Source of the DNA: Rhizobium indicum
Lineage (GTDB): Bacteria > Pseudomonadota > Alphaproteobacteria > Rhizobiales > Rhizobiaceae
Assembly (NCBI RefSeq): GCF_005862305.2
Contig: NZ_CP054023.1
Coordinates: forward strand, 310,001 to 374,000
Direction of reading: 5' to 3'
DNA: 64,000 bases
The translations under genes and the position numbers were made by a program. This document shows positions 1-46,865 of the stretch, one piece after another; position 1 is the first letter of the stretch; each line of letters opens with the position of its first letter. The notes below the pieces were generated by a model. It had not been told where the DNA came from and made no database searches. It saw nothing but the letters and a program-made list of their open reading frames with translations.

Positions 1-120
1 GTGGCGCTCAGCCTTTCCAGCCGCTTCGGCCTGACCTTCGTCGGCTACTACCTGCTTTCCGGCGCTGTCTGCACGCTGGCAGCACTTGCCTTCAGCAGGG
101 CGCTGGAGCAGCGCGAATAG
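1..120 (+). CDS. C-terminal fragment of a membrane protein, possibly a transporter
   Basis: An open frame runs from the window edge to a TAG stop at 118-120, giving 39 residues. It holds one hydrophobic helix (about residues 9-30, rich in Leu, Ala, Gly and Tyr) and a short charged tail ending LEQRE. This looks like the last membrane helix of a multi-pass permease, for example an MFS carrier, but too little is present to name a family. The start lies outside the window. Confidence 0.5.
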   Translation: MALSLSSRFGLTFVGYYLLSGAVCTLAALAFSRALEQRE

Positions 121-31744: not shown

Positions 31745-32413
31745 ATGTTGCAGCCGGTTATCAACGAGACCATCGCCGAAAGCAGCTACAGGCGCATTCG
31801 GGCCGACATTATTTTTGGCCGGCTGGCTCCCGGACAAAAGTTGAAGCTGGAAAGCCTGAAGGAGACCTACGAGACCAGCATCAGCACACTTCGAGAAGTG
31901 CTAAACCGGCTCTCCTCCGAAGGGCTTGTCCTCGCCGAGGGACAAAAAGGTTTCGAAGTGTCTCCGGTGTCCGTTTCGGACCTCAAGGAGACAGCGGCAC
32001 TCAGGCTTCTCCTGGAAACACATGCGCTGGAGCAGTCGTTCGTGCATGGCGACGTGGAGTGGGAGGCTCCCCTGGTATCCGCGCACTACAAATTGGCGCG
32101 GATGGAACAGGTGATGGCATCCGGCGACACCGGCAGGGCCGAGGACTGGAAGCGCTACGACTGGGAGTTTCACCAAGCGCTGATATCCGCCTGCGGGTCG
32201 AAACTGCTGATGGAGACGCATTCGGTGATCTTCGACAGATATCTCAGATATCAGATGGTTGCCTTGTCCTATCGAGGCGATGTCGCGGCCAATGAACATC
32301 AGCAGCTTCTGGACGCGGCATTGCGACGGGACGCAGAGACGGCCAAGCGGGTGCTTGTCCTGCATATTCAAGGCGGGGTTGAACATGCGCTGGCGAGAGG
32401 GACGCTGAAATAG
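31745..32413 (+). CDS. GntR-family (FCD/FadR-type) transcriptional regulator
   Basis: 222 residues. N-terminal winged helix: YRRIRADIIFGRLAPGQKLKLESLKETYETSISTLREVLNRLSSEGLV. C-terminal all-helical FCD ligand domain with the metal/ligand pattern DWEFHQALISAC, then histidines in LVLHIQGGVEH. FCD regulators often bind organic acids and repress catabolic operons. It is clearly paralogous to the next gene and stands at the edge of the quinate/shikimate island, so it probably senses a pathway intermediate. The ATG at 31745 was chosen over an upstream start because the domain begins just after it. Confidence 0.9.
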   Translation: MLQPVINETIAESSYRRIRADIIFGRLAPGQKLKLESLKETYETSISTLREVLNRLSSEGLVLAEGQKGFEVSPVSVSDLKETAALRLLLETHALEQSFVHGDVEWEAPLVSAHYKLARMEQVMASGDTGRAEDWKRYDWEFHQALISACGSKLLMETHSVIFDRYLRYQMVALSYRGDVAANEHQQLLDAALRRDAETAKRVLVLHIQGGVEHALARGTLK

Positions 32414-32486: not shown

Positions 32487-33161
32487 ATGCTCAAGCAAGT
32501 CCACGACCCGGCTGAAACAGTAAGCGATGTTGTCTTCCGACAGATCCGCGAGGACATCATATCGGGCACATTGCCGCCGGGGGCCAAGATCAAGCTGGAG
32601 CAGGCAAAGGAGCGCTATTCCATCGGCATTTCATCGCTGCGCGAAATTTTGAGCCGCCTCACCACGGAAAACCTCGTCGTCGCCGAGGGGCAGCGTGGCT
32701 TTGAAGTGAGCCCTGCTTCGCGCCGCGAACTTCTGGAGCTCGCCGACCTTAGGATCGTTCTGGAAACGCACGCGATCGGCCTTGCCTTCGCCGCGGGAAA
32801 TCTTGAATGGGAAGGGCGCATCGTCGCCGCCCATCACCGGCTGGCTGCCGCCGAACGCAAGCTCCTTGCCGGCGACGTCTCGCGGACCGTCGACTGGGTT
32901 CGATACGATTGGGAGTTCCATCAGGCGATCGTCTCGGCCTGCAATTCGGCGACGCTGATGGCGACATTGTCATCCGTCTTCGACCGCTTTCTCCGCTACC
33001 ATATGCTGGCCGAGAGTTTTCGCGGAAAGCCCGTCGTCGATGACCACAGGCTTATGTTTGAACTTTCCATTCGGCGCGACGTCGCTGGCGCGACCGACAT
33101 CGTCAGGCGGCACGTTCAAAGCGGCGTGGACCATGTGCTGAAGAGCGGCCGGATTACTTAG
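32487..33161 (+). CDS. GntR-family (FCD/FadR-type) regulator, paralogue of the preceding gene
   Basis: 224 residues. DNA-binding domain FRQIREDIISGTLPPGAKIKLEQAKERYSIGISSLREILSRL and FCD domain with RYDWEFHQAIVSAC and RRHVQSGVDHVL. It aligns with the preceding protein over its whole length with many identical blocks (for example RYDWEFHQA and ETHA), so the pair arose by tandem duplication. The ligand-domain residues differ more than the DNA-binding ones, suggesting two inducers for related operators. It reads toward, and is convergent with, the QuiC-type dehydratase gene. Confidence 0.9.
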   Translation: MLKQVHDPAETVSDVVFRQIREDIISGTLPPGAKIKLEQAKERYSIGISSLREILSRLTTENLVVAEGQRGFEVSPASRRELLELADLRIVLETHAIGLAFAAGNLEWEGRIVAAHHRLAAAERKLLAGDVSRTVDWVRYDWEFHQAIVSACNSATLMATLSSVFDRFLRYHMLAESFRGKPVVDDHRLMFELSIRRDVAGATDIVRRHVQSGVDHVLKSGRIT

Positions 33162-33268: not shown

Positions 33269-35164
33269 TCAAGAGGCGTCTTTAGGAATTCCTTCCGGAC
33301 GCATCTGTTTCTTCAGAGCGGCGATCCGGAAAATTGCGTTCGGGGCGCCGTAGCCGCGGTAGCCGCGGCGCTCGACGATCTCGAAAAAGAAACCCTCTCC
33401 ATAGGTTCCGCTATAGAGCTGGAAATATTCGCCATGCTCGTCGCGGTCATAGAGGATGTTCTCCGCCTTCAGCCGCTCGGTCAATGCAGGATCGAGGCCG
33501 AAGCGTGCTTCGACGTCGTCATAGTAGTTCGGCGAAATGTGCAGTGATCTGAAACCGCAAACACGAAGGCTTTCGGCGGTCGCGAAGATGTCGTCGGTCA
33601 CAAACGCCAGATGCTGGATGCCGGCCCCGAATTTCTCGGCGATGAAATGTCCCGCCAGAGTGCGGCGATTCTCGGCGCCGTTCATGGTAATGCGCAGCGC
33701 CCCGGTGTCGTTCTCGACGACTTGACTGCGCACCACCCCGGCCGGATCGATGATATCGACCATCGGGGTCTTCCGCGTCTCGAAAATGGACGTGTAGAAC
33801 AGAAGCCAGGTGAGCATTTCATCGTAGCCGACCGTCTGGGCGACGTGATCAATGCGCAAAAGGCCTGCAGGCGGCGCGTCGCTGTCGTCGGTGACCGGCT
33901 GAAAGTCGATTTCGGAGAAGCGACCCAATGCGCTCTTGTCGTCGATGAGATAGACGATCCCGCCCCCCACGCCCCGAATGGCGGGCAGCTCAAGCTCACC
34001 GTCTGCGACAGGCTGGGTGAATGGCTCGGCATCCAAGGCGAGCGCGCGCTCATAGGCCTTGGCCGCATCGTCGACGACCAGGGCCATGGCATAGGCAAAA
34101 GTACCGTGAACGGCGTAGGCCGCATTGGCGAACCCTGCCTGATCGACATTGACGAGGATCCGTATCTCGCCCTGCTCGAAAAGAGAGACTTTCTTCGTGC
34201 GGTGGATTGCCGTCTTTTTAAATCCGAGGGTGCGCAGCAAGGCAACCAGCTCGACTTCATCTTCCTCGTCCGTGGCAAACTCGACGAAGCCGACGCCCTT
34301 GACGGAAGGCCTTTCCGGCATTGCCGCCCCGGTCATGCTGCCGATGCCGAGATGGCGGCGCACCTGATCGCCGAGATAGATCAGGGAGCGGTGGCCGTCG
34401 GCCGCAATCGCCCGCGACAAACCGCCTCGAAATTGATCGTTGAAGATCTCCAGGGAGAAATACCCGTCATAACCTGTCGCCGCGACGGCTTCGGTGAACG
34501 CCGTCACGGGAAGGTCGCCTTCACCCGGCATGTTTCGGAAGTGGCGGCTCCAGTAGAGCAGGTCCATGTCGATATCAGGGGCATCGGCAAGCTGGACGAT
34601 GAAGATTTTCTCTTTGGGAATTGAGCGGATCGAATTGACGTCGATCTTCCGCGACAAGGTGTGGAAGCTGTCGAGGATAAGACCGATATTCGGATGATCG
34701 GCGCGACGGACGATCTCCCAGGCGTCGCGATGGTCGCTGATATGGCGGCCCCAGGCAAGCGCCTCATAGCCCACCCTCAGTCCACGCCGGGCAGCACGCT
34801 CGCCAAGTTCATGAAAGTCCGCTGCCGCCCGGTCGATGCCGCCGATAGCGGCCGGCGAGACGTTGGAGCAGACAAGCACCAGATCCGTTCCGAGCTGCTG
34901 CATCACGTCGAACTTCCGTTCCGCGCGGTCAAACGTACGGCTTCGCAAGGGCTCCGGCATGCCCTCGAAATCACGAAATGGCTGAAACAGGGTGATCTCC
35001 AGGCCATGGTCGCGGACGAGTTTTCCGACATCGGCCGGGCTTCCGTCGAAGGCGAGGAAGTCATTTTCGAAGATCTCGACGCCGTCGAAGCCCGCCCGGG
35101 CGATCGCCTCGAGCTTCTCCGGAAGTTCGCCGCTGATCGTTACAGTCGCAATCGAGGTCCTCAT
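33269..35164 (-). CDS. quiC: 3-dehydroshikimate dehydratase, QuiC two-domain type
   Basis: 631 residues. Domain 1 (1-270) is a sugar-isomerase-like TIM barrel with the metal ligands Glu134 (GYEALAW), Asp165 (LILDSFH), Gln191 (IVQLAD) and Glu239 (FSLEIF). As I recall, these positions match the ligands of Pseudomonas QuiC1. Domain 2 (about 290-620) is a 4-hydroxyphenylpyruvate-dioxygenase-like fold (RIDHVAQTV, GIQHLAFVT, GEGFFFEIVER). QuiC enzymes dehydrate 3-dehydroshikimate to protocatechuate. The pca genes that degrade protocatechuate are only 7 kb away, and a dehydroquinase and AroE-like enzyme lie between. It is divergent from the ABC importer. The start at 35164 fits the domain start. Confidence 0.9.
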   Translation of the reverse strand: MRTSIATVTISGELPEKLEAIARAGFDGVEIFENDFLAFDGSPADVGKLVRDHGLEITLFQPFRDFEGMPEPLRSRTFDRAERKFDVMQQLGTDLVLVCSNVSPAAIGGIDRAAADFHELGERAARRGLRVGYEALAWGRHISDHRDAWEIVRRADHPNIGLILDSFHTLSRKIDVNSIRSIPKEKIFIVQLADAPDIDMDLLYWSRHFRNMPGEGDLPVTAFTEAVAATGYDGYFSLEIFNDQFRGGLSRAIAADGHRSLIYLGDQVRRHLGIGSMTGAAMPERPSVKGVGFVEFATDEEDEVELVALLRTLGFKKTAIHRTKKVSLFEQGEIRILVNVDQAGFANAAYAVHGTFAYAMALVVDDAAKAYERALALDAEPFTQPVADGELELPAIRGVGGGIVYLIDDKSALGRFSEIDFQPVTDDSDAPPAGLLRIDHVAQTVGYDEMLTWLLFYTSIFETRKTPMVDIIDPAGVVRSQVVENDTGALRITMNGAENRRTLAGHFIAEKFGAGIQHLAFVTDDIFATAESLRVCGFRSLHISPNYYDDVEARFGLDPALTERLKAENILYDRDEHGEYFQLYSGTYGEGFFFEIVERRGYRGYGAPNAIFRIAALKKQMRPEGIPKDAS

Positions 35165-35290
35165 GTCAAACCCTTCCGATATCCGTGCGAGATTAAACGA
35201 GCGCCGAACACCACGATGCGTCACGGAAAATCGCTCGCTACTATTATGGCAAATGTCGTGAGGAATTCAAATAGCGTGTCTTATTATAAA

Positions 35291-35302
35291 TTCTCATATG
35301 AT
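35291..35302. promoter_or_regulatory. Candidate regulator site TTCTCATATGAT, copy 2
   Basis: Exact reverse complement of the 12-mer at 31643-31654. It lies between the dehydratase start (35164) and the binding-protein start (35412), so one bound regulator could control both directions. AT-rich flanks suggest overlapping promoters. Confidence 0.45.
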
Positions 35303-35411
35303 TTTGAAAAACTCTGTTGATTTGACCGCTCGTCTCTGGCAATCATTGCTCACACAGTCAAAAGGTGAGGTGGCTGTCCGGTCGAGTGACCGCCAAAGGA
35401 GGAGGAATCAC

Positions 35412-36242
35412 ATGTTCAAATCTATGCTGACGCGCCGAAACGCGATGCTCGGAGCCGCGGCCCTGGTGGCTGCCGTCACCCTAGCGCAACCGGCCGCCGC
35501 CATCACGCCTGATGAAATCAAGGCTCGCGGCAAGATCATCGTCGGAATTCAGGGTGACAACCCGCCTTGGGGCTTCGTGACCAGCGGCGGCAAACAGGAC
35601 GGCCTCGATGCCGACATCGCGACGCTGTTTGCCAAGGAACTGGGTGTTGCCGTCGAGTTCGTGCCGCTTGAAGTCAACAACCGCATTCCCGCACTGACGG
35701 CCGGCCGCGTCGACGTTCTGTTCGCGACGATGGCGATGCTGCCGGATCGCGCAAAGGCCGTGCAGTTCAGCAAGCCCTATGTTGCTAATGCCATCGTTCT
35801 GATTGGTCCGAAATCGGCTGAGATCAAGAAGAATGACGACATGGCCAAGTTCACGGTCGGCGTCGCCAAGGGTGCAGCCCAGGACACGCAGGTCACCAAG
35901 AACGCGCCGCCGAGCACGACCATCCGGCGCTATGATGGAGACGCCGCGAGCGTCCAGGCCCTGGTGTCCGGCCAGGTCGAGACGCTTGGTGGCAACATTT
36001 TCTACATGGACCGGGTGGAGAAGGCCCGTCCGGGCGAATTCGAAAACAAGCTTGAATTCCAGAAGCTCTACAACGGTGCTTGCACGCGTCTCGGCGAAAA
36101 GGAAATCAATGCGGCGCTCAACACCTTCATCGACAAGATCAAGGCAAACGGCGAACTCAAGGCAGTCTACGACAAGTGGATGAAGGTTCCGGTCCCGGAA
36201 TTCCCGGAAACGCTGGAAGGCATTCCGTTCGCGGCGAACTGA
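35412..36242 (+). CDS. ABC transporter substrate-binding protein, amino-acid (PAAT) type, altered ligand site
   Basis: 276 residues with a signal peptide (MLTRRNAMLGAAALVAAVTLAQPAAA) and the two-lobed family-3 binding fold. The conserved ligand Arg is retained (Arg113, LPDRAKAVQFS). The Asp that in HisJ-like proteins holds the alpha-amino group is Asn195 here (GQVETLGGN); the other family-3 protein in this window keeps Asp there (GRIDLGFDD). Loss of the ammonium-binding acid suggests a carboxylate without an amino group. It is the first gene of a run with dehydroquinase, two permeases, ATPase and two dehydrogenases, so a quinate/shikimate-like ligand is inferred. A strong AAAGGAGGAGG site precedes the ATG. 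Confidence 0.88.
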   Translation: MFKSMLTRRNAMLGAAALVAAVTLAQPAAAITPDEIKARGKIIVGIQGDNPPWGFVTSGGKQDGLDADIATLFAKELGVAVEFVPLEVNNRIPALTAGRVDVLFATMAMLPDRAKAVQFSKPYVANAIVLIGPKSAEIKKNDDMAKFTVGVAKGAAQDTQVTKNAPPSTTIRRYDGDAASVQALVSGQVETLGGNIFYMDRVEKARPGEFENKLEFQKLYNGACTRLGEKEINAALNTFIDKIKANGELKAVYDKWMKVPVPEFPETLEGIPFAAN

Positions 36243-36305
36243 GCGAACCGCAAAGGCGGACGAGGCCCGGCCTTCCGGCTGATGACAGGGTCTGCCAACC
36301 GCTCG

Positions 36306-36373
36306 CCGTCATGCTCGGGCTCGTGTCCCGAGCATCTACGGCGGCAGATCCCCGGCACAGGCCGAGGATGACG
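36306..36373. repeat. Palindromic repeat, CGTCATGCTCGGG type
   Basis: CGTCATGCTCGGGCTCGTGTCCCGAGCAT followed by GATCCCCGGCACAGGCCGAGGATGACG: outer arms CGTCAT.CTCGG and CCGAG.ATGACG are inverted. It lies inside the presumed operon between the binding-protein gene and aroQ and could form a stabilising hairpin that keeps binding-protein mRNA abundant. I know similar sequences from other alphaproteobacteria. Confidence 0.6.
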
Positions 36374-36473
36374 TCCAGAAAGAGGCAGTCTCTCACCAAG
36401 CAAGGCCGGGCATGCCAATGCCCGGCAACGCAACCGCCATGCTTAAGGCTCTGCCCCGTTTGAGGTGCGCGAC

Positions 36474-36917
36474 ATGACCAAAACCATCTTTGTGCTCAAC
36501 GGACCGAACCTGAACCTGCTGGGCCAGCGCGAACCGGCGATCTATGGAACCACGACGCTGGCCGACATCAGGAAACGGTGCGTGACCAAGGCAAAGTCCT
36601 TGGGATTCGACGTCGAGTTCCGGCAGACCAATTTCGAGGGCGAACTGGTCGAGAGCGTGCACCAGGCCCGGACCGACGCCTGTGGCATCATCATCAATCC
36701 CGCCGGCTATACCTTCACATCGATCGCTCTTCTCGATGCGTTGAAAATGTTCGACCCGCCGAAGATCGAGCTGCATATTTCGAATGTTCATGCGCGCGAA
36801 AGCATCTACCACAATTCGCTGATCTCGCGCGTTGCCACGGCCATCATGATCGGCTTTGGAGCGGATGGCTACGAGCTGGCTATCCAGGCGATGGCTGGAA
36901 TGGTCAAGCAGGACTGA
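36474..36917 (+). CDS. aroQ: Type II 3-dehydroquinate dehydratase
   Basis: 147 residues, full length for the type II dodecameric enzyme, which interconverts 3-dehydroquinate and 3-dehydroshikimate. Motifs: NGPNLNLLGQREPAIYG with catalytic Tyr24, INPAGYTFTS, and ELHISNVHARE with the catalytic His101. The ATG at 36474 is preferred over a GTG three codons earlier because MTKTIFVLNGPN is the usual start. Its place between transport genes and next to QuiC-type and pca genes argues for a catabolic rather than biosynthetic copy. Confidence 0.95.
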   Translation: MTKTIFVLNGPNLNLLGQREPAIYGTTTLADIRKRCVTKAKSLGFDVEFRQTNFEGELVESVHQARTDACGIIINPAGYTFTSIALLDALKMFDPPKIELHISNVHARESIYHNSLISRVATAIMIGFGADGYELAIQAMAGMVKQD

Positions 36918-36948
36918 ACTTTCAGGAAGACGGACCAGAAGGATCGCC

Positions 36949-37617
36949 ATGAATTATAAGTTGGATTTCACCCCGGTCATAGATGGCCTGCCGAGCCTTC
37001 TGCTCGGCTGCCTCGGGACATTCTTGCTTGCCATTTGTGGGATGCTGCTGGCGATCATCATCGGAATTGGCGGCGTCGCCTTGCGCGACTCCGCCCTGAA
37101 GCCGGCGCGATGGCTGGTCATCGCCTTCGTCGAGTTGATCCGTAACACGCCGTTTCTGGTGCAGATCTTTTTCATCTACTTCGCGCTTCCGCTGACAGGC
37201 ATCAGGCTGGATCCGACACCGACGGCGATTATCGCGCTCGGCATTAACGGTGGTGCCTACGCAATTGAGATCATTCGCGGCGGCGTCCAGTCGATCCCGA
37301 AGGGACAGATGGAAGCGGGTCTGGCGCTTGGTCTGCACAAGGCTCAGGTCTTCCGGCTGATCATCCTCAAGCCGGCATTACGGGCGATCTATCCGTCCTT
37401 GACCAGCCAGTTCGTCCTGTTGACGCTGACCACCAGCATCGCATCGGCGATTTCCGCCTACGAGCTAACGTCCGTTTCGCAGCGCATCGAGTCGGAGAGC
37501 TTCCGCAGCTTCGAGGTCTACTTCACCGTCACGGTTTTCTACTTCGTGATCTCCTGGCTGATGATGCGCATCTTCGCGCTGTTTTCGGCGCGTTACTTCA
37601 AATATCCGGTCAAGTAG
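36949..37617 (+). CDS. Amino-acid-type (PAAT) ABC transporter permease
   Basis: 222 residues with the HisM/GlnP layout: membrane helices from about 12, the FVELIRNTPFLVQIFFIYF segment, and the EAA loop GQMEAGLALGLHKAQVFRLIILKPALR. Starts 31 bp after aroQ. It pairs with the next permease to make the heteromeric channel of the importer whose binding protein is encoded at 35412. The insertion of aroQ within the transport genes is unusual and links transport to the quinate pathway. Confidence 0.93.
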   Translation: MNYKLDFTPVIDGLPSLLLGCLGTFLLAICGMLLAIIIGIGGVALRDSALKPARWLVIAFVELIRNTPFLVQIFFIYFALPLTGIRLDPTPTAIIALGINGGAYAIEIIRGGVQSIPKGQMEAGLALGLHKAQVFRLIILKPALRAIYPSLTSQFVLLTLTTSIASAISAYELTSVSQRIESESFRSFEVYFTVTVFYFVISWLMMRIFALFSARYFKYPVK

Positions 37618-37627
37618 GAGGAATTCC

Positions 37628-38269
37628 ATGGGTCACGAAGAATTCGTCTTCCTCCTGATCGGCCTGAAATGGACAGTGCTCCTGTCCGCCGTCGGTTTTG
37701 TCTGCGGCGGCATCGCGGGGCTCGGCGTCGCCCTTGCCCGTGCCTCGGGCATACCGCTGCTGGAACGCGTCACGGCCGGCTATATCGCCGTCTTCCAGGG
37801 AACCCCGCTGCTGATGCAGCTGTTCGTCGTCTATTACGGCTTGGCGCTGGTGGGGCTGATGCTCGATTCCTGGGTGGCCGTCGCCATCGGCCTGACGCTG
37901 CATGCGAGCGCCTATCTCGGCGAGATCTGGCGCGGATCGATCGAAGCGGTTCCGCGCGGCCAGACGGAAGCGGCAAAGGCTCTCAGCCTCAGATACATCT
38001 CGCGCATGAAGGATGTCATCCTGCCGCAGGCGCTGCGCATTTCGCTGCCCGCCACGATCGGTTTCCTCGTCCAGTTGATCAAGGGCACCTCGCTTGCGTC
38101 GATCGTCGGCTTCACCGAGCTGACGCGGGCCGGCAACATCATCTCCAACCAGATTTTCCAACCGCTGACGGTCTTCGGCATCGTCGGCATTCTCTATTTC
38201 CTGATGTGCTGCCCACTGACGATTCTTGGCGCTCGCCTCGAACGAAAGTTCGCCGCCTCCGCGCGCTGA
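37628..38269 (+). CDS. Amino-acid-type (PAAT) ABC transporter permease, second subunit
   Basis: 213 residues, HisQ/HisM type, with [22 protein letters not shown] and the EAA loop [27 protein letters not shown]. Starts 10 bp after the first permease with GGAGGAATTCC in front of its ATG. Together the two permeases, ATPase and binding protein make a complete importer. Confidence 0.93.
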
Positions 38270-38322
38270 TCCGCATCCCTCGTCTTCGATGCGGTCCAGC
38301 CCGCCAATATGGAGTTCTACCG

Positions 38323-39087
38323 ATGACCATTCCCAGTCCTGCTCAAGGCGCGGAAACCATGATCACCATGGAGCGGGTGGAGAAGTGGTATGGCGCTTTT
38401 CAAGCCCTGCACGACATCAACATATCGGTTCGCAGCGGCGAGAGGATCGTCTTGTGCGGGCCTTCCGGCAGCGGCAAGTCGACGCTCATTCGCTGCATCA
38501 ACCATCTCGAGACCTATGAAAAAGGTGAAATCCGCGTCGGCGGGATTCTTCTCGGCAATCAGGCCAAGACCATCGATGCGATCCGTCGCGAGGTCGGCAT
38601 GGTCTTCCAGCAGTTCAACCTGTTTCCGCATCTGACCGTGCTGCAGAACTGCATGCTGGCGCCGATGAAGGCAGCCGGCGTTGGCAGGGCGGAGGCCGAG
38701 GAACGGGCACGCGGGCTGCTCGAGCGGGTCAAGATCCTGGAGCAGGCCGACAAATATCCGGTGCAGCTTTCTGGTGGCCAGCAGCAGCGCGTGGCCATTG
38801 CCCGCGCGCTTTGCATGCGGCCGAAAGTCATGCTGTTCGATGAGCCGACCTCGGCGCTTGATCCGGAGATGGTCAAGGAGGTGCTGGATACGATGATCGC
38901 GCTTGCTGATGAGGGCATGACGATGATCTGCGTCACGCACGAGATGGGCTTTGCCCGCCAGGTCGCCGATCGCGTGATCTTCATGGCCAGCGGCGCGATC
39001 GTCGAGGAAGCCCCGCCCGCCGAGTTCTTCACGAACCCACAGCATGAGCGAACCAGGAAATTCCTCGGAGAAATCCTGCGGAAGTAG
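38323..39087 (+). CDS. ATP-binding subunit of the PAAT-type importer
   Basis: 254 residues of the GlnQ/HisP class. Walker [12 protein letters not shown]-loop [15 protein letters not shown], signature [15 protein letters not shown], Walker [15 protein letters not shown] and H-switch [13 protein letters not shown] are all intact. A short N-terminal extension ([13 protein letters not shown]) precedes the core; a second ATG at 38359 is possible. It energises the importer encoded by the preceding genes. Confidence 0.95.
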
Positions 39088-39130
39088 GGGTCTCAAGGTC
39101 GATGCGTCTGGCAAATTATGGGAGCCGGCA

Positions 39131-40198
39131 ATGAAGCCGCTGGAGATTGCAGTCATGGGAGCCGGCCTGATCGGCAGGCGCCACGTCGAGCGTGTCATGT
39201 CCGAGCCCGGAACCGTTCTCTCGGCGGTGATCGATCCTTCCGCCGCCGGTCGCGACTTTGCCGAGACTGTCGGCGCCCGATGGTATCGGAGCTTTTCGGA
39301 CATTCGCGTCGAGGATAGGCCTGACGGCGTCATCGTGGCGACGCCGAACCAGCTTCACGTCGAGAACGGAATGGAGATCGTCGCCGCCGGCATCCCCGTT
39401 CTGATCGAGAAACCGATCGCCGACGATGTCGATGCCGCCGCGGCGCTGGTCGCCGCCGGCGAGAAGGCGGGCATACCGCTGCTGGTCGGCCATCACAGGC
39501 GCCACAATCCGATGATCCAGGCGGTAAAGCAGATCGTCGACGGCGGAAGGCTTGGCCGGATCATCGCGGTGCACGGCACGTTCTGGGTCGCCAAGCCCGA
39601 CAACTATTTCGATATCCCCTGGCGGCGCGAAGCGGGCGCCGGCCCGGTCTTCGTCAACCTGATCCACGATGTCGATCTCTTCCGATATCTCTTCGGCGAG
39701 GTCGAAGCCGTCCATGCGCTGGAATCGCACGCCGTGCGGAACCATGCCGTCGAGGATACGGCCGTCGTCACGCTGCGTTTTGCAAGCGGGGTGCTTGCCA
39801 CCCTCAACGGCAGTGATGCCGTGGCCGCGCCCTGGAGCTGGGAGACGACCACCGGTGAGAACCCCGCTTTTCCCCATTACGATCAATTCTGCTACCAGAT
39901 CGGCGGCACCAGGGGTTCGCTCGGAATTCCCGATTTGACGCTTTGGACGAGCCCTTCGAGGCCCGATTGGCTGGAGCGGCTCGACCAGGAGCGGGTGCCC
40001 TACGCGGCAGCCGATCCCCTTCGCGTTCAGCTCGGACATTTTTGCGACGTCATTCGTGGCGATGCCACGCCTCTGGTGAGTGGCCGGGAGGGCCTCGCCA
40101 CGCTCAGGGTCGTCGAGGCGATCAAGAGATCGGCGCGCTCGGGACGGATGATCCACCTCGCTGACGCCCGCGCCTCTTCCGATCCCCAGAAAGTCTGA
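39131..40198 (+). CDS. Gfo/Idh/MocA-family NAD(P)-dependent dehydrogenase
   Basis: 355 residues. The N-terminal Rossmann motif is VMGAGLIGRRHVE, followed by the family EKP motif at 93-95 (LIEKPIADDV). The catalytic segment is FVNLIHDVDLFRYL with His179 and Asp180. Family members oxidise inositols and other polyols or sugars. It begins 43 bp after the importer ATPase gene and ends 4 bp before the AroE-like gene. Since the cluster lacks an obvious PQQ quinate dehydrogenase, this enzyme is a candidate for the first oxidation of quinate or a related cyclitol acid; that is inference from context. Confidence 0.88.
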   Translation: MKPLEIAVMGAGLIGRRHVERVMSEPGTVLSAVIDPSAAGRDFAETVGARWYRSFSDIRVEDRPDGVIVATPNQLHVENGMEIVAAGIPVLIEKPIADDVDAAAALVAAGEKAGIPLLVGHHRRHNPMIQAVKQIVDGGRLGRIIAVHGTFWVAKPDNYFDIPWRREAGAGPVFVNLIHDVDLFRYLFGEVEAVHALESHAVRNHAVEDTAVVTLRFASGVLATLNGSDAVAAPWSWETTTGENPAFPHYDQFCYQIGGTRGSLGIPDLTLWTSPSRPDWLERLDQERVPYAAADPLRVQLGHFCDVIRGDATPLVSGREGLATLRVVEAIKRSARSGRMIHLADARASSDPQKV

Positions 40199-40202
40199 CC
40201 AC

Positions 40203-41033
40203 ATGATCACCGGGACGACCAAACTCATCGCTCACCTCGGCTATCCGACGGAGTCCTTCAAGGCCCCGCTGATCTACAATCCGTATTTCGAGAAGAACGG
40301 AATTGATGCCGTCGTCGTGCCGATGGGCTGCAGGCCGGAGGACTATTCGGTATTTCTGAAGCTTCTGTTCCGGCTATCCAATATCCACGGCGCTCTGATC
40401 ACGATGCCGCACAAGATTTCGACGATGGCGCTGCTCGACGAAACGTCGACCAACGCGAAAGTCGCAGGCTCGTGCAATGCAGTGCGCCTCGGTTCGGACG
40501 GCAGGCTGATCGGTGACATGTTCGATGGCGAGGGCTTCGTTCGCGGCGTGTTGCGCAAGGGTAAAAAGGTTGAAGGCGCCCATGCGCTCATTGCGGGTGC
40601 CGGCGGCGTCGGCTCGGCGATCGCGGCGTCGTTGGCACAGGCGGGCGTGGACCATCTCGCCATCTTCGACGCCAACGAGACGACCGCGACCGCGCTGCTG
40701 GACAGGCTGAAGAAATATTATCCACAGCTTGAAGTGACGGTCGGTTCCGCCGATCCGGCAGGTTTCGACATTGTCGTCAATGCGACACCTCTCGGAATGC
40801 GACGGGGTGACCCGCTGCCAATCGATATCGACCGCATTTCTCCATCGACCTTCGTCGGCGAAGTCGTGCTGACCAAGGAGATAACCCCTTTTCTCGAGGC
40901 CGTGCGGGCGCGCGGCTGTGCATTTCAGGTTGGGACGGACATGTTGTTCGAACAGATCCCCGCCTATCTCGAATTCTTCGAATTTCCGACGACGACGGCC
41001 GACAATCTGCGGGCAATCGCCAAACTCGGATGA
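40203..41033 (+). CDS. Shikimate dehydrogenase-like (AroE family) protein, divergent substrate site
   Basis: 276 residues. The catalytic pair is kept: Lys71 (ITMPHK) and Asp108 (GDMFDGEG), plus Asn92 and the NADP-binding AGAGGVGSAIA. The shikimate-carboxylate SxS motif of AroE (HSKSP in E. coli) reads ESFKAP here. Two further substrate contacts are also replaced: the Asn of NVTVP is Leu, and NTDG is MFDG. It is therefore an AroE-like dehydrogenase acting on shikimate, quinate or a related compound, with specificity uncertain. It closes the rightward operon of importer, dehydroquinase and dehydrogenases. Confidence 0.88.
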   Translation: MITGTTKLIAHLGYPTESFKAPLIYNPYFEKNGIDAVVVPMGCRPEDYSVFLKLLFRLSNIHGALITMPHKISTMALLDETSTNAKVAGSCNAVRLGSDGRLIGDMFDGEGFVRGVLRKGKKVEGAHALIAGAGGVGSAIAASLAQAGVDHLAIFDANETTATALLDRLKKYYPQLEVTVGSADPAGFDIVVNATPLGMRRGDPLPIDIDRISPSTFVGEVVLTKEITPFLEAVRARGCAFQVGTDMLFEQIPAYLEFFEFPTTTADNLRAIAKLG

Positions 41034-41041
41034 TGCGAATT

Positions 41042-41157
41042 TAGAGCAATTCCAGCAAAAGTGTGCAGCGGTTTTGCTTTCGGAATTGCGTAAAAACAAA
41101 GAGATAGAACATGATGCCGAAAAGTGTGCGCGGTTTTCGGACGACATCCTGTTCTAG
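41042..41157. repeat. RIME-like mosaic element, two palindromes
   Basis: Module A: GAGCAATTCCAGCAAAAGTGTGCAGCGGTTTTGCTTTCGGAATTGC. Module B: GAACATGATGCCGAAAAGTG...CGGTTTTCGGACGACATCCTGTTC. Module B recurs at 48997 and 63692, module A at 18691. It separates two convergent genes and reaches the SDR stop codon. Confidence 0.8.
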
Positions 41158-41921
41158 AGCGAGACGGTGATGCCGCCGTCTACGGTCAGCATATGGCCGT
41201 TGACGAAGGAGGAGGCATCCGAGGCGAGGAAGACGGCGGCGCCGACGAGCTCCTTGACCTCGCCCCAGCGGCCGGCCGGCGTGCGGGTTTCCAGCCAGCC
41301 AGAAAACTTCGGATCGTCGACAAGCGCCTGGTTGAGCGGCGTGCGGAAATAGCCGGGCGCGATCGCATTGACCTGCAGGCCGTATTTCGCCCAGTCGGTC
41401 GCCATGCCGCGCGTGAGGTTCTTCACCGCGCCCTTGGTCGCGGTATAGGGCGCGATGCCGGGGCGGGCGAGTTCGGCCTGGACGGAGGCGATGTTGATGA
41501 TCTTGCCGCGGCCGCGCGATATCATCGCCTGGGCGACTGGCTGGCTGACATAGAACAGGCTGGAGACATTGGTCTTGAAGATCTCGTCCCATTTGTCGAC
41601 CGGGAAGTTCTCCAGCGGTGTGCGGAACTGCATGCCGGCATTGTTGACGAGGATGTCGATCGGGCCGATCTCCGCCTCGATATAGGCGATGGCGGTGCGG
41701 CTGGCCTCGGCATCGGTGACGTCGAAGGCGGCGCTGACGGCATGGCGATGGCTGCGACGGATATCCTCGGCGGCGGCCTCAGCCTTCTGCGCGTTGCGGC
41801 CGTTGATGATGATCGAAGCGCCATGCTCGGCAAGCCCGACCGCCAACGCGCGGCCGATGCCTTGGCTGGAGCCGGTAACGAGGGCGCGGCGCCCGGAGAG
41901 GTCGAAGAGGGGAAAGGTCAC
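41154..41921 (-). CDS. Short-chain dehydrogenase/reductase (gluconate 5-dehydrogenase-like)
   Basis: 255 residues from a GTG at 41921, seven bases after AGGAG. NAD(P)-binding TGSSQGIG at 17-24, NNAG at 93-96, and the catalytic Ser146, Tyr159 and Lys163 (YTATK). The C-terminal SDASSFVNGHMLTVDGG is standard for classical SDRs. Closest in character to gluconate 5-dehydrogenases or 3-oxoacyl-ACP reductases. It follows pcaB by 67 bp on the same strand and could be the last gene of the pca transcript; a role in the adjoining cyclitol-acid pathway is possible. Confidence 0.88.
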   Translation of the reverse strand: MTFPLFDLSGRRALVTGSSQGIGRALAVGLAEHGASIIINGRNAQKAEAAAEDIRRSHRHAVSAAFDVTDAEASRTAIAYIEAEIGPIDILVNNAGMQFRTPLENFPVDKWDEIFKTNVSSLFYVSQPVAQAMISRGRGKIINIASVQAELARPGIAPYTATKGAVKNLTRGMATDWAKYGLQVNAIAPGYFRTPLNQALVDDPKFSGWLETRTPAGRWGEVKELVGAAVFLASDASSFVNGHMLTVDGGITVSL

Positions 41922-41988
41922 GAGGCTGCTCCTGATTTCATTGCACTCTGCATAGCCGGTTTCCGGCATTACATGCAAAGGTGCTGGA

Positions 41989-43035
41989 TCAGCCCGTTCC
42001 AAGCCTCTTGATATTTCCTGCAAGCTCTCCGGCTAGCCGCAGGCTGGCGGCGGTTGCCATCGTCATTTGCGGCAGAAGCAGCCATTCGAGCGTCCAGGCA
42101 GCGCCCGAGCGTTCCTGTTCGTGGACGAGGGACTGGTGAACGCCCGATAAAGCCGTGGCGTTGAAGCGGGCGAGCGAGACGAGGACTTCGGCGGAAACGG
42201 GGTTCTGCTTGTGCGCCATCGCCGACGACGTGCCGCCGCCTGAGATTTCGATCTCGCCGCCAGCCTGGGCAAGCAGCGCGATATCCTGCCCCATCTTGCC
42301 GAGGCTGCCCGATATCGACGCGAACAGGCCGGCGATATCGGCGATCGGCAGACGCCCGCTCTGCCATTGCGGCGCATCGGTGAGACCGAGTTCCTGGGCG
42401 AGCGAGGCCCGGATGGCTGCGGCCTGCGACCCGAGCTTGTCAAGCGTGCCGGCCGCACCACCGAACTGGACGGGAAAACCCTGTTCGGTCAGGCGGTCGC
42501 GATAGGTCGCCAGCGGCTCCCGCCACGCACGGAGGCGATCGGCGACGGTGATCGGGATCGCCGCCTGCATGCGGGTATGACCCATCAGCTGGTTCCGGCC
42601 GAACTGGCCGTCGAGCGCATCGAGCCCCACGGCGATGGTGGAAAGCCGGCCGGCAAACAGGAAGACGACGGCCTTCAGGCGGATCATCAGGCTGGTATCG
42701 ATGACATCCTGGCTGGTCGCGCCGAGATGCAGGCTTTTTGCCGCTTCCTCGCCGACATCGGTGCGCAGCTGCTTGATGAGGTCGGGAACGACGACACCGT
42801 CCCTTGCCGTTGCTGATCGAAGACTGGACACATCGGGCGAGAAGGCGGCGCAGGTGTCAGCGATGCGCCTTGCGGCTTCGGCGGGAATGAGGCCGTGAGC
42901 GGCTTCAGCCTTGGCGAGCGCGGCCTCGAAGGAGAGCATGGCCCGTATATCCGCCTCGGCGGAGAAATAGGGCGCGATTTCATCGTCGCCGAGCAGGCTG
43001 GAAAGGAAGGGGTGGTCGAAGGGCGATGCAGTCAT
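41989..43035 (-). CDS. pcaB: 3-carboxy-cis,cis-muconate cycloisomerase
   Basis: 348 residues of the fumarase/aspartase superfamily. The signature loop is GGGTSSAMAHKQNPV, with LHLGATSQDVIDTSL earlier. PcaB converts beta-carboxymuconate to gamma-carboxymuconolactone, the step after ring cleavage. The ATG at 43035 gives the usual PcaB N-terminus (FDHPFLSSLLGD). It follows pcaG after a 173-bp gap that holds a repeat fragment, and probably belongs to the pcaDCHGB operon. Confidence 0.93.
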   Translation of the reverse strand: MTASPFDHPFLSSLLGDDEIAPYFSAEADIRAMLSFEAALAKAEAAHGLIPAEAARRIADTCAAFSPDVSSLRSATARDGVVVPDLIKQLRTDVGEEAAKSLHLGATSQDVIDTSLMIRLKAVVFLFAGRLSTIAVGLDALDGQFGRNQLMGHTRMQAAIPITVADRLRAWREPLATYRDRLTEQGFPVQFGGAAGTLDKLGSQAAAIRASLAQELGLTDAPQWQSGRLPIADIAGLFASISGSLGKMGQDIALLAQAGGEIEISGGGTSSAMAHKQNPVSAEVLVSLARFNATALSGVHQSLVHEQERSGAAWTLEWLLLPQMTMATAASLRLAGELAGNIKRLGTG

Positions 43036-43059
43036 GATCGTCTCGGTTCGTGGTTGTGG

Positions 43060-43100
43060 CCCCTCATCCGGCTGCCGCCACCTTCTCCCCGCTGAAGGGG
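43060..43100. repeat. Fragment of a rhizobial intergenic repeat
   Basis: CCCCTCATCCGGCTGCCGCCACCTTCTCCCCGCTGAAGGGGC resembles a repeat I know from other rhizobial intergenic regions. Here only one half is present. It lies between pcaG and pcaB. Confidence 0.4.
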
Positions 43101-43208
43101 CTCGAGGCGGCGTCCGCGCTTCATGGGCGGGTGATCTCGTACGGCACATCCCCTGGCGGACGCTACCCGCACATCACCGCCCCAGCAAGCCGATGGCGAC
43201 GCCGGCCT

Positions 43209-43820
43209 TCAGATATCCAGAAACACCGTTTCCTTCGGACCCTGCAGATGGATGTCGAAGTGACAGGTCGCGCCGTCGCGGGTGGCGACCATTGTTGCGA
43301 CGCGCTCGCGATGTTCGATGCGGGAAAGCAGCGGGTCGGCGGCGTTGGCCTCCGTCTCTTCCGGAAAATACATGCGCGTGTGCAGGCCGATATTGATGCC
43401 GCGGGCGACGATCCAGAAGGTGATGTGCGGGGCTTGTCTGCGGCCGTCCTTGAAGGGGACACGGCCGGGCTTGACCGTCTCGAAGCTGTAGACGCCGTCC
43501 TCAGCGCGGGTCGGGCAGCGGCCCCAGCCGGCGAAATTCGGGTCGGCGGCGCCGCGCATTTCCGACGGGCTGTTATAGAGCCCGGCGCTGTCGGCCTGCC
43601 AGATCTCGATGACCGCATCGCGCACCAATGCCCCGGCGCCATCGAAGATCCGGCCGGTAACGGTGATGCGTTCGCCGAGCGTCTTGTCGTTGACCATCCC
43701 GATGCCGAGATCGGTGTCGTAGACGCCCGTTATGTCGCAGAAATTCGGCGTCAGGCCGATATGCACATAGGGACCCGCCGTCTGCGACGGGGTTTCCTTG
43801 AGATAGCCGAGCTGCTGCAT
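43209..43820 (-). CDS. pcaG: Protocatechuate 3,4-dioxygenase alpha subunit
   Basis: 203 residues, the usual length of PcaG. Features include QTAGPYVHIGL near the N-terminus and the intradiol dioxygenase core GAGALVRDAVIEIWQADSAG, PNFAGWGRCPT and LHTRMYFPEE. The alpha chain lacks the iron ligands, which are in the beta chain, but forms the heterodimer and shapes the active site. It starts 2 bp after pcaH. The enzyme cleaves protocatechuate between its two hydroxyls. Confidence 0.95.
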   Translation of the reverse strand: MQQLGYLKETPSQTAGPYVHIGLTPNFCDITGVYDTDLGIGMVNDKTLGERITVTGRIFDGAGALVRDAVIEIWQADSAGLYNSPSEMRGAADPNFAGWGRCPTRAEDGVYSFETVKPGRVPFKDGRRQAPHITFWIVARGINIGLHTRMYFPEETEANAADPLLSRIEHRERVATMVATRDGATCHFDIHLQGPKETVFLDI

Positions 43821-43822
43821 GG

Positions 43823-44572
43823 TCAGTTGCCCTCCGGTCTGTTTTCGAACATCGTCGAGCGGCGGCCGCGCAGCACGATATCGAATTTATAGGCGCGTGA
43901 ATCCATCGGAATGGTGTTGCCCCAGTCAAGCGGCGCGATCAGCTGCTCGATCGCCGCCTTGTCGGGGATGGTGCCGACGATCGGACATTTCCAGATCATC
44001 GGGTCGCCTTCGAAATACATCTGGGTGATCAGGCGCTGGGCAAAGCCATGGCCGAAGATCGAGAAATGGATATGGGCGGGACGCCAGTCGTTGATGCCGT
44101 TCGGCCAGGGATAGGCGCCGGGACGGATGGTGCGGAAATGGTAGCGGCCGTCCTCGTCGGTGATGGCGCGGCCGCAGCCGCCGAAATTCGGGTCGATCGC
44201 CGCCAGATAGGTTTCCTTCTTGTGGCGATAGCGGCCGCCGGCATTGGCCTGCCAGAACTCGACCAAGGCGCCTGCAACCGGCCTGGCGCGCTCGTCGAGC
44301 ACGCGGCCATGGACGATGATGCGTTCGCCGATGGCACTCTCGCCGGGCTGCGCGTAGTTCAGGATCAGGTCGTTGTCGAGTTCGCCGATCATCGAATGAC
44401 CGAAGACCGGACCGGTGGTCTCGGAAATCGTGCCATCGAGCGAGAGCAGCGCGCGCTGCGGCGCGCGCAGCACGGAGGTCTTGTAGCCGGGGGTCAGCGC
44501 TGGCGCATGCCAGGCGCGGTCGCGGGCGAAGAAGCCGCCGGTCTCGGGCTTGCGGTTCGGTCGTTCGGACAT
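43823..44572 (-). CDS. pcaH: Protocatechuate 3,4-dioxygenase beta subunit
   Basis: 249 residues. The four ligands of the non-heme Fe(III) are visible: Tyr115 (GGRYRHK), Tyr154 (GAYPWPN), His167 and His169 (PAHIHFS). [12 protein letters not shown] and [16 protein letters not shown] are diagnostic of the beta chain. With PcaG it opens the ring of protocatechuate with O2 to give beta-carboxymuconate. Order pcaD-pcaC-pcaH-pcaG-pcaB matches the operon of Agrobacterium and Sinorhizobium. Confidence 0.97.
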
Positions 44573-44581
44573 GTTCCTCCC

Positions 44582-44986
44582 TCAGGCCGCCTTTTCGGCG
44601 TCCATCTGTTCAAAAGCCTGCTTTGCGATCTTGATCGCGTGATTGGCGGCGGGAACGCCGGCATAGATCGCCACATGCAGCAGCGCCTCGCAGATATCCT
44701 CGCGGGTCGCCCCCGTATTGGCGGTGGCGCGCACATGCATGGCGACCTCGTCGTCCTGGCCGAGGGCGGCAAGCAGAGCGATCGTGACGATCGAGCGTTC
44801 GCGCTTCGTCAGTGCCGGGCGTGACCAGACATGGCCCCAGGCGGCTTCGGTGATCAGTTCCTGGAAGGGGCGGTCGAACTCCGTCGATGTGGTGGCGGCG
44901 CGGTCGACATGGGCGTCGCCGAGCACGGCGCGGCGGGTCGCCATGCCCTGGCGATAGCGCTCGGAAGGGGACGCGGTCTCATTCAT
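44582..44986 (-). CDS. pcaC: 4-carboxymuconolactone decarboxylase
   Basis: 134 residues of the AhpD-like CMD family, with WGHVWSRPALTKRERSIVTIALL and the helix HVRATANTGATREDICEALLHVAIYAGVPAA. It decarboxylates gamma-carboxymuconolactone to beta-ketoadipate enol-lactone. The ATG at 44986 overlaps the pcaD stop as ATGA, so the two are translationally coupled; a longer start upstream is unlikely. Confidence 0.95.
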   Translation of the reverse strand: MNETASPSERYRQGMATRRAVLGDAHVDRAATTSTEFDRPFQELITEAAWGHVWSRPALTKRERSIVTIALLAALGQDDEVAMHVRATANTGATREDICEALLHVAIYAGVPAANHAIKIAKQAFEQMDAEKAA

Positions 44987-45792
44987 GGGCTGACTTCTCC
45001 AGGCGGAATGGATGTGAGGAAGGCGCGGATGATCGTCGTCAGCGCCTCCGGCTGCTCGACACAGGGAATGTGCGCGCAATTAGGGATGACCTCGTAGCGG
45101 GCGCCTGATATCAGCTTCGCGGTCGAAAGCACGAGATCGGGCGGCGTCGAGCCATCCTGGTCGCCGACGATGCAGATCGTTGGCACGGCGATCGTCTTTG
45201 CGACCTCGGTGAAATCGGCATCACGGATCGCGGCGCAGGCGGCGACATAACCCTCGACGGGTTGGCGCGTCAGCATGTTGCAATAGCCGGCATAGGCGGT
45301 GCTCTCGGGTCGGCGGAAGGCGGGTGTGAACCAGCGTTCCATGATGGCGTCGACAATGCTGCCGATGCCGTTTTTCTCGACGGCGGCGATGCGGGCGTTC
45401 CAGCTTTCCGCCGTGCCGATCTTATGGGCGGTGTCGCAGAGGATGAGCGCGCGGACCAGGTCCGGCCGGCGGTGATAGAGCGACTGGGCGATGAGGCCGC
45501 CGACGGAGAGGCCGCAGATGACGGCATCCTTGACAGACAGCAGATCGAGAAGGCCGGCGAGATCCGTCGCATGGTCCTCGATCGATGAGGGAAGCTGGCC
45601 GACATCGGAAAGGCCGTGGCCACGCTTGTCGTAAAGTACGATGGCAAATTCACCGGCAAGCCGCACTACGACATCACGCCAGATGCGGAAATCCGTTCCG
45701 AGCGAATTGGTAAAGACGATCACCGGCCTGTCGGCAGGCGCGCCGATGATCTGATAATGGATCGTCACGTCGTTTATGCGGGCGAATTGCAC
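44983..45792 (-). CDS. pcaD: Beta-ketoadipate enol-lactone hydrolase
   Basis: 269 residues, alpha/beta hydrolase. Nucleophile elbow CGLSVGG, acid region IVGDQDGSTPPD, and catalytic His in IPNCAHIPCVEQPEAL. It hydrolyses the enol-lactone to beta-ketoadipate. The start is a GTG at 45792 with AGGAGGAGAG six to seven bases before it. It is the first gene of the leftward pca operon and is divergent from pcaQ. Confidence 0.95.
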   Translation of the reverse strand: MQFARINDVTIHYQIIGAPADRPVIVFTNSLGTDFRIWRDVVVRLAGEFAIVLYDKRGHGLSDVGQLPSSIEDHATDLAGLLDLLSVKDAVICGLSVGGLIAQSLYHRRPDLVRALILCDTAHKIGTAESWNARIAAVEKNGIGSIVDAIMERWFTPAFRRPESTAYAGYCNMLTRQPVEGYVAACAAIRDADFTEVAKTIAVPTICIVGDQDGSTPPDLVLSTAKLISGARYEVIPNCAHIPCVEQPEALTTIIRAFLTSIPPGEVSP

Positions 45793-45864: not shown

Positions 45865-45880
45865 ATAACTCGGGAGTTAT
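45865..45880. promoter_or_regulatory. Candidate PcaQ operator (perfect palindrome)
   Basis: ATAACTCGGGAGTTAT is a perfect 16-bp palindrome between pcaD and pcaQ. The PcaQ site I recall from S. meliloti is ATAACC-N4-GGTTAA; the spacing and the ATAAC/GTTA arms agree. It overlaps one possible pcaQ ATG (45879), which supports the later start at 45888 and suggests autoregulation. Confidence 0.7.
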
Positions 45881-45887
45881 GCGAGCG

Positions 45888-46808
45888 ATGATCGACAGCC
45901 GGGTCAAGTTCCGCCATCTGCAAACCTTTGTCGAGGTGGCGCGGCAGAAGAGCGTCATGAAGGCCGCCGAATTGCTGCATGTCAGCCAGCCGGCGGTCAC
46001 CAAGACGATCCGCGAACTGGAACAGGTGCTGGGCGTCGATGTCTTCGAGCGTGATGGCCGCGGCATCAAGATCACCCGCTACGGCGAGGTCTTCCTGCGG
46101 CATGCAGGTGCGGCGCTGACGGCGCTACGCCAGGGTCTCGATTCCGTCTCGCAGGAGCAGTTCGCAGATGCGCCGCCGATCCGGATCGGCGCGCTGCCGA
46201 CGGTGTCATCGCGCATCATGCCGCGGGCGATGGAACTCTTCCTCAAGGAAAAGACCTGGAGCCGGGTGAAGATCGTCACCGGCGAGAACGCCGTGCTCCT
46301 TGAACAGCTCCGCGTCGGTGATCTCGACCTCGTCGTCGGACGTCTGGCCGGCGCCGAGAATATGGCAGGGTTTTCCTTCGAGCATCTTTATTCCGAGCAG
46401 GTGGTGTTTGCCGTGCGCGCCGGCCATCCGCTGCTCGACGGCCGGCAAGCACTGTTTGCCGGCTTCGGCAACTATACGGTGCTGATGCCGACGCGGGGTT
46501 CGATTATTCGGCCGGTGGTCGAAAATTTCCTCATCGCCAACGGCGTCTCCAGCCTGCCGAACCAGATCGAGACGGTTTCGGATTCCTTCGGCCGCGCATT
46601 CCTGCGGGCAAGCGATGCGATCTGGATCATTTCCAACGGCGTCGTGGCCAACGATGTCGCCGACGGGCGGCTGGCGCTTCTGCCGGTCGATACCGGCGAG
46701 ACCAAGGGGCCGGTCGGGTTGACGATGCGCGCCGATGCCGTGCCGTCACTGCCGCAATCGATCCTGATGCAGACGATCCGCGAGGCGGCAGGCGAGGCGG
46801 CCCTTTAA
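45888..46808 (+). CDS. pcaQ: LysR-type activator of the pca operon
   Basis: 306 residues. LysR helix-turn-helix: RHLQTFVEVARQKSVMKAAELLHVSQPAVTKTIRELEQ, followed by the co-inducer domain. In rhizobia PcaQ activates pcaDCHGB in response to beta-carboxymuconate lactone-type intermediates. I start at the ATG at 45888 (MIDSRVKFRHL) because the ATG at 45879 lies within the operator palindrome and GGGAG is too close to it. Divergent orientation from pcaD is the conserved arrangement. Confidence 0.95.
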   Translation: MIDSRVKFRHLQTFVEVARQKSVMKAAELLHVSQPAVTKTIRELEQVLGVDVFERDGRGIKITRYGEVFLRHAGAALTALRQGLDSVSQEQFADAPPIRIGALPTVSSRIMPRAMELFLKEKTWSRVKIVTGENAVLLEQLRVGDLDLVVGRLAGAENMAGFSFEHLYSEQVVFAVRAGHPLLDGRQALFAGFGNYTVLMPTRGSIIRPVVENFLIANGVSSLPNQIETVSDSFGRAFLRASDAIWIISNGVVANDVADGRLALLPVDTGETKGPVGLTMRADAVPSLPQSILMQTIREAAGEAAL

Positions 46809-46865
46809 ATTTGCTTGATGAATGCCCAGATTTGGACTAAGTCTAATTCAAGACAGGAGGCTTTC

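Follow-up and report, generated by a model that had tools for sequence, protein, structure and literature searches.

A catabolic island for an alicyclic acid of the quinate/shikimate class, served by a dedicated ATP-binding cassette (ABC) importer, is probably encoded at positions 33269–45792 of the window analyzed here, a 64,000-nucleotide stretch of Rhizobium indicum (R. leguminosarum complex; NZ_CP054023.1, positions 310,001–374,000; contig C3 of a 7.5 Mb genome in six contigs). Judged from sequence, import of quinate/shikimate-type acids by this importer, a member of the PAAT family, is well supported. From left to right, two GntR/FCD regulator genes are followed by a divergent quiC and by genes for a substrate-binding protein (SBP), an AroQ homologue, two permeases, an ATPase, a Gfo/Idh/MocA dehydrogenase (Idh/MocA), and an AroE-like dehydrogenase (AroEL); the right part, on the opposite strand, holds an SDR oxidoreductase gene and pcaB, G, H, C, and D, with pcaQ last. 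An earlier, sequence-only reading had named QuiC, AroQ, an AroE-like protein, Idh/MocA, a complete PAAT importer, and pcaBGHCD, and all of these are present where it placed them. The whole island shows synteny with pRL11, a plasmid of Rhizobium johnstonii 3841, the exception being a TetR gene and a saccharopine-dehydrogenase-like gene that lie between AroEL and SDR in 3841.

The importer is complete, and comprises an SBP_bac_3 binding protein (35412–36242, + strand; start placed by ribosome-binding site and synteny, residues numbered from 35406), two HEQRo-type permeases (36949–37617 and 37628–38269, both +), and one ATPase (38323–39087, +), assigned by Pfam and NCBIfam and, for the permeases and ATPase, also by synteny. 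The quiC gene (33269–35164, −) encodes a QuiC1-type protein with a TIM barrel and an HPPD-like domain, which aligns with the solved protein 5hmq over residues 3–622 (589 bits), a full-length match across both domains; against the NCBIfam equivalog NF042435 it scores 661 bits, short of the cut-off of 1200. We take 5hmq, deposited as a 4-hydroxyphenylpyruvate dioxygenase, to be P. putida QuiC1, and 3-dehydroshikimate dehydratase activity is probable for the island protein. The protocatechuate branch consists of pcaB (41989–43035), pcaG (43209–43820), pcaH (43823–44572), pcaC (44582–44986), and pcaD (44983–45792), all on the − strand, and the LysR regulator gene pcaQ (45888–46808, +; scanned from 45879, start by synteny), each scoring above its curated NCBIfam cut-off (for pcaB, 375.6 bits against 355.75). 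The remaining enzymes are the AroQ homologue (36474–36917, +; residues numbered from a GTG at 36465), Idh/MocA (39131–40198, +; Pfam and NCBIfam), and AroEL (40203–41033, +; Pfam, NCBIfam, and alignments). The island AroE and AroQ genes were rejected as housekeeping copies, separate copies with canonical residues being present on contig C1 of the same genome. The island resembles the P. putida QuiC1 route in its two-domain QuiC alignment and in the proximity of quiC to pca genes, but differs in its tie to an ABC importer and in its atypical AroQ and AroE-like enzymes.

Linkage of the importer to these enzymes was counted from two starting genes, AroEL and SBP, and the counts rule out a chance neighbourhood. 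Among AroEL-selected loci, which are the best 80 of at least 532 confirmed relatives in the genome collection, 65 contain the importer (an SBP of at least 55% identity with two permeases within 8 kb, and an ATPase of at least 60% in the locus); of the same 80 loci, 73 encode AroQ, 63 QuiC (at least 45%), and 55 Idh/MocA (at least 35%), and 29 have a pcaG or pcaH match. SBP matches at E ≤ 1e-55 occur in 68/100 genomes of the genus, 14/297 of the order, 4/385 of the class, and 13/398 of the phylum, counts that overlap because the own genome and some others were counted more than once. Within 53 SBP-selected loci, a sample chosen to span the range of identity, AroQ is present in 37 of 37 loci at 46% identity or above (20/20 at 83–99%, 12/12 at 54–65%, and 5/5 at 46–49%) versus none of 16 at 44% or below (38–44%); many of the sampled loci come from related Rhizobium and hence are not independent, and gene order varies between lineages. 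SBP identity alone is an inexact dividing line, because a Roseomonas relative (43.9%, tblastn) has AroQ adjacent despite its low identity, and a Sinorhizobium meliloti relative at 42% is without AroQ, among hydantoinase and aminotransferase genes.

The Rhizobium-type order begins with the SBP gene; most Bosea, Microvirga, and Ancylobacter loci have AroQ and the permeases first and QuiC last, a second Rhizobium group has the order permeases-SBP-ATPase-AroE-AroQ-Idh, and a third has Idh-AroQ-QuiC behind the ATPase. An annotated record of Bradyrhizobium japonicum likewise brings together two “shikimate dehydrogenases,” the importer, AroQ, and Idh/MocA, and one of R. etli has a sister operon near pcaRIJF. 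In a quick tree of 61 rows, all 32 sampled SBPs linked to these aro-type genes (aro-linked) fall into one supported set together with three others; single forks of this tree are less trustworthy, because it carries a warning of long branches.

Two variants of the importer loci were also noted. One Bosea operon (L062) has two SBP genes (78% and 79% identity to that of the window) with one permease pair and one ATPase. In a group of related Rhizobium importers (L023, L024, and L140–L146), the neighbours are a TIM-barrel protein (AP_endonuc_2), an intradiol dioxygenase, HpaH, and HpaI, families that were tested in L023 only; the L023 dioxygenase is of the catechol-dioxygenase type (Pfam Dioxygenase_C and Dioxygenase_N, minus strand), and no QuiC was detected beside the importers of this group. 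In these loci, the pathway for the same class of acids possibly ends in a different ring opening.

Where AroEL loci fail the importer test (15/80), other carriers appear in several cases. Two of these loci (L043 and L061) are cut off within the importer operon by the end of the contig; in the other 13, some on short contigs, no PAAT component was detected. Four of the 13 (L074, L079, L106, and L113) encode an MHS-type symporter of the ShiA class, about 6 kb away in L113, and five (L076, L082, L086, L087, and L108) have TRAP permease genes; L075, L080, L094, and L112 had none of the transporter types probed, the contigs of L075 and L094 ending beside AroEL. Because MHS and TRAP carriers replace the importer in these sister loci, the ABC importer would be expected to carry an acid of the quinate/shikimate class. 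ShiA-class symporters are single-protein MFS carriers, unlike the ABC importer of the island. Against the NCBIfam shikimate transporter model, the MHS protein of L106 reaches 266 bits and that of L074 261 bits, both below the cut-off of 538. A search at E ≤ 1e-20 identified three MHS homologues in the genome of the window, the best of which reaches 266.5 bits against the same model, again under the cut-off. The left edge of the window (1–102) cuts through one MHS-type transporter gene (C3:308897–310102, mostly outside the window), about 33 kb from the island, whose product has 30% identity to the MHS protein of the Bradyrhizobium AroEL locus L106.

In amino-acid-binding PAAT SBPs, an Arg holds the ligand carboxylate, and Thr/Ser and Asp hold the alpha-amino group. 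We aligned 47 aro-linked SBPs, all distinct (that of the window, 37 SBP-selected, and nine from AroEL loci), with 29 comparison SBPs (non-linked relatives, paralogues from the own genome, and two solved structures). At positions 110, 115, and 197, the aro-linked proteins read A-R-N in 41 cases and G-R-N in six, whereas AncQR and AncCDT have T-R-D; the 29 other SBPs always keep Arg115, have Asp at 197 in eight, and read A-R-N once. The importer is like GlnH/HisJ-type PAAT importers in fold family, subunit make-up, and Arg115, but in all 47 aro-linked SBPs the amine-holding Thr and Asp places are Ala/Gly and Asn. All but one of the 47 linked SBPs share the wider set Q49-D/E51-N52-T/V108-A/G110-R115-Q159-D160-N197-Y/F222-N223, which occurs in 0/29 others; the nearest SBP paralogue in the own genome has 34% identity. 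Such a pocket fits a carboxylate and several hydroxyls with no alpha-amino group, and would leave the ligand unnamed; by fold the protein is a PAAT member, from which amino-acid specificity would not follow. Near its right end (62808–63158), the window has a further PAAT binding-protein match, a partial one at 24% identity.

The AroQ homologue belongs to the DHquinase_II family (184.3 bits to PF01220) and keeps the catalytic Arg22 and Tyr27, but Phe84 stands at the catalytic His of the THTS motif, which we take to be the general acid of the type II enzyme, and Tyr115 at an active-site Arg. S. coelicolor type II dehydroquinase (DHQase; 1d0i), of the same family and with the same catalytic Arg and Tyr, and the second AroQ of the genome have the His of (T/S)HTS and the Arg of FRH(H/K)S; in the island protein both positions have changed together. 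The loci retrieved gave 120 AroQ rows, of which 88 have Phe/Tyr (FY-type), 32 have His/Arg (HR-type), and none is a mixture; these rows include places retrieved twice, and a recount of 106 distinct sequences gave 77 FY-type, 29 HR-type, and again no mixtures. Over all 120 rows, the REPxIYG-type loop retains its Arg and Tyr without exception; in type II DHQase, the Tyr is the proposed base and the Arg an essential residue (PMC7144000). Both types occur together in eight loci (L054, L089, L092, L099, L103, L105, L110, and L111), from Bosea and some Rhizobium. “Dehydroquinase,” the name used in the sequence-only reading, thus holds for the family alone, given the atypical active site.

AroEL keeps the catalytic Lys71 and Asp108, both conserved in 116/116 rows, and has Phe19 and Ala21 at the places of two AroE serines that anchor the substrate carboxylate; the housekeeping AroE of the same genome has the canonical serines (HSRSP). 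At these two places, 107 distinct AroE-type sequences read F/A in 90, F/S in four, S/S in nine, S/T in two, V/S in one, and V/A in one, and Phe19 is invariant in the AroEL alignment. Of the 87 loci that encode FY-type AroQ, 86 encode in addition an AroE-type protein in which Phe stands at the serine place (the exception is L134). In sister operons at 54–65% SBP identity, AroQ is of the HR type and 11 of 12 AroE-type rows keep both Ser/Thr residues; the twelfth, L021, is F/A, and L143 has no row in this count, though its locus has an AroE-type match. Since these sister operons retain HR-type AroQ and Ser/Thr AroE, the importer class occurs with both canonical and altered enzymes. The AroQ and AroEL changes look like re-specialization and not decay, because they are conserved across genera, and as both active sites are altered, the true substrate may be a relative of quinate or shikimate.

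In the scheme that we propose, an SBP derived from the polar-amino-acid family would hold the ligand carboxylate by Arg115 and the ring hydroxyls by Gln49, Asp51, Asn52, Gln159, Asp160, Asn197, Tyr222, and Asn223, and the two permeases and ATPase, by analogy with their families, would bring the acid into the cell. AroEL and/or Idh/MocA may then oxidize a ring hydroxyl, with the AroQ homologue acting on the resulting ketone, so that the product would reach QuiC as 3-dehydroshikimate or a close analogue. For the last steps the family assignments are strong: QuiC is predicted to dehydrate 3-dehydroshikimate to protocatechuate, which PcaHG, B, C, and D would convert towards beta-ketoadipate. The route proposed in the sequence-only reading, from quinate or shikimate through protocatechuate to beta-ketoadipate, is retained at its QuiC/pca end and in its linkage to the importer, and needs correction at the AroQ and AroEL steps, where the residues are atypical. 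Likewise, linkage, pocket, and replacement agree with its proposal of an importer as far as the class of acid, and do not settle quinate or shikimate itself as the substrate.

Several observations weigh against the reading of the island as a catabolic unit for acids of this class. The window AroQ has Phe and Tyr115 in place of the canonical catalytic His and active-site Arg, and AroEL has Phe19 and Ala21 in place of both carboxylate-binding serines. The 80 AroEL loci are incomplete for Idh/MocA (55), QuiC (63), and AroQ (73). Three SBPs inside the supported set of the tree fall outside the aro-linked count: that of L133, a locus with an AroE-like gene of 37% identity, and those of L026 and L027, loci that gave no AroQ or AroE-type match. 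Asp at 197 is also missing from 21 of the 29 other PAAT SBPs, and so its loss alone does not identify a ligand. Finally, the AlphaFold2 model of the SBP has a mean pLDDT of 66.3, with residues 91–127 below 50, and is unusable in the pocket.

The proposal has two narrower forms. Plain quinate/shikimate catabolism, in which AroQ is still a DHQase and AroEL still a quinate/shikimate dehydrogenase, both tolerating their active-site changes, and the importer carries quinate and shikimate, comes near to an even chance without reaching it. It draws on the same logic of gene neighbourhood, on the related importer group with canonical enzymes in the same operon (HR-type AroQ and AroE with both Ser/Thr), on the MHS (ShiA-class) transporters that replace the importer in some AroEL loci, and on the retention of Arg22 and Tyr27 in AroQ and of Lys71 and Asp108 in AroEL. 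Set against this, Phe-for-His is always paired with Tyr-for-Arg in the FY-type AroQ (77/106 distinct sequences), and the eight loci with both AroQ types are hard to explain if the two have identical jobs. A conversion of quinate to dehydroquinate to dehydroshikimate by AroQ and AroEL does not follow from their sequences, each of which lacks some of the residues on which the canonical enzyme relies.

The other form, catabolism of a relative of quinate or shikimate (a stereoisomer, or a deoxy, amino, or ester form) through FY-type AroQ and F-A-type AroEL, is a credible but not a probable one. It would account for the coupled FY/HR switch in AroQ, for the invariance of Phe19 in AroEL and the near-complete pairing of FY-type AroQ with Phe-type AroE proteins (86/87 loci), and for the loci of Bosea and some Rhizobium in which the two AroQ types occur together; however, it names no candidate substrate, and AroEL is also found accompanied by HR-type AroQ alone and in loci where no AroQ was detected. 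More tentatively still, the island may represent an unmapped route for such a relative, in which an ABC importer class for polyhydroxylated alicyclic acids, an AroEL with a rebuilt carboxylate site, and an AroQ that catalyzes a reaction other than that of DHQase precede QuiC and the pca enzymes. Aminoshikimate (PMC8788734) was considered as a ligand, with evidence neither for nor against it. That the importer is an ordinary amino-acid transporter lying by chance among genes for aromatic catabolism, as its PAAT membership and the family-based NCBI annotation would have it, is very unlikely in view of its recurrent linkage to AroQ, AroE, and Idh in differing gene orders, the loss of both amine-holding residues from the SBP, and its replacement by other carriers in AroEL loci.

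Just upstream of the island is the tandem pair of FCD-type GntR genes (31745–32413, +, with the open reading frame opening at 31685 and the start placed by synteny with RL_RS30120; and 32487–33161, +, also syntenic), both assigned by Pfam GntR and FCD domains, and just downstream is pcaQ. The GntR pair probably controls the divergent quiC and importer promoters, and PcaQ the pca operon. A 30-bp motif, TCATATGATTTNNAAAAACTNTGTTGATTT (35294–35323, +), is conserved 5′ of the SBP gene in Rhizobium-type islands and occurs once in the window; its 18-bp core is exact in 51/171 loci, some of which repeat the same place, and it is a candidate regulatory site. A dyad, ATAACT-N4-AGTTAT (45865–45880), between pcaD and pcaQ is a candidate PcaQ site, with two mismatches to the consensus; the window contains 10 matches to the PcaQ-type dyad pattern, where 5.63 would be expected, so that the site is weak on its own.

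Among the other neighbouring genes, the SDR oxidoreductase gene (41154–41921, −; Pfam and NCBIfam) was not detected at the same place in several relatives. Directly after pcaQ is a pair encoding an Xre/MbcA-type antitoxin and a RES-domain toxin (46815–48055; syntenic with RL_RS30215/30220), and 3841 has another Xre/MbcA-RES pair on the left side of the island. At window positions 6359–6450, ARAGORN predicted a tRNA-like gene whose anticodon is unclear.

To our knowledge, the uptake systems known so far for quinate and shikimate are single-protein carriers. The novelty that the sequence-only reading attributed to an ABC importer for these acids agrees with the open-access literature, in which no ABC or binding-protein-dependent importer of quinate or shikimate was found described, subscription journals lying largely outside this scope. 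Ramachandran et al. (2011; PMC3333776) attributed the uptake of shikimate by 3841 to RL4709, an MFS protein, and so the importer may be neither the sole nor the principal route for shikimate. The pcaGHCDQ genes have been placed on pRL11 (Garcia-Fraile et al., 2015; PMC4495286), in a paper whose main text contains neither “quinate” nor “shikimate”; the same is true of the main text of a rhizosphere transposon-sequencing study of 3841 (PMC11103875). Six pRL11 locus tags, derived for the island by counting from pcaG, had no match in open-access papers. The protocatechuate transporter PcaMNVWX of S. meliloti is also linked to pca genes but is of a different ABC class (its R. leguminosarum relative is HAAT-type and not linked to pca), and its substrate is the aromatic acid itself (PMC4495286). 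A large replicon segment of S. meliloti is required for use of quinate and protocatechuate, as cited by PMC3597991.

Because the AroQ copy of 3841 lacks the canonical catalytic His and is labeled “type II 3-dehydroquinate dehydratase” in the public record, pathway predictions made from this label may be wrong, a consequence that reaches beyond the island. Quinate and shikimate, like their esters, are plentiful in plants. An ABC importer for acids of this class, if true, would explain the scavenging of trace plant acids by root bacteria, and would supply a binding protein for sensing quinate/shikimate-type acids.

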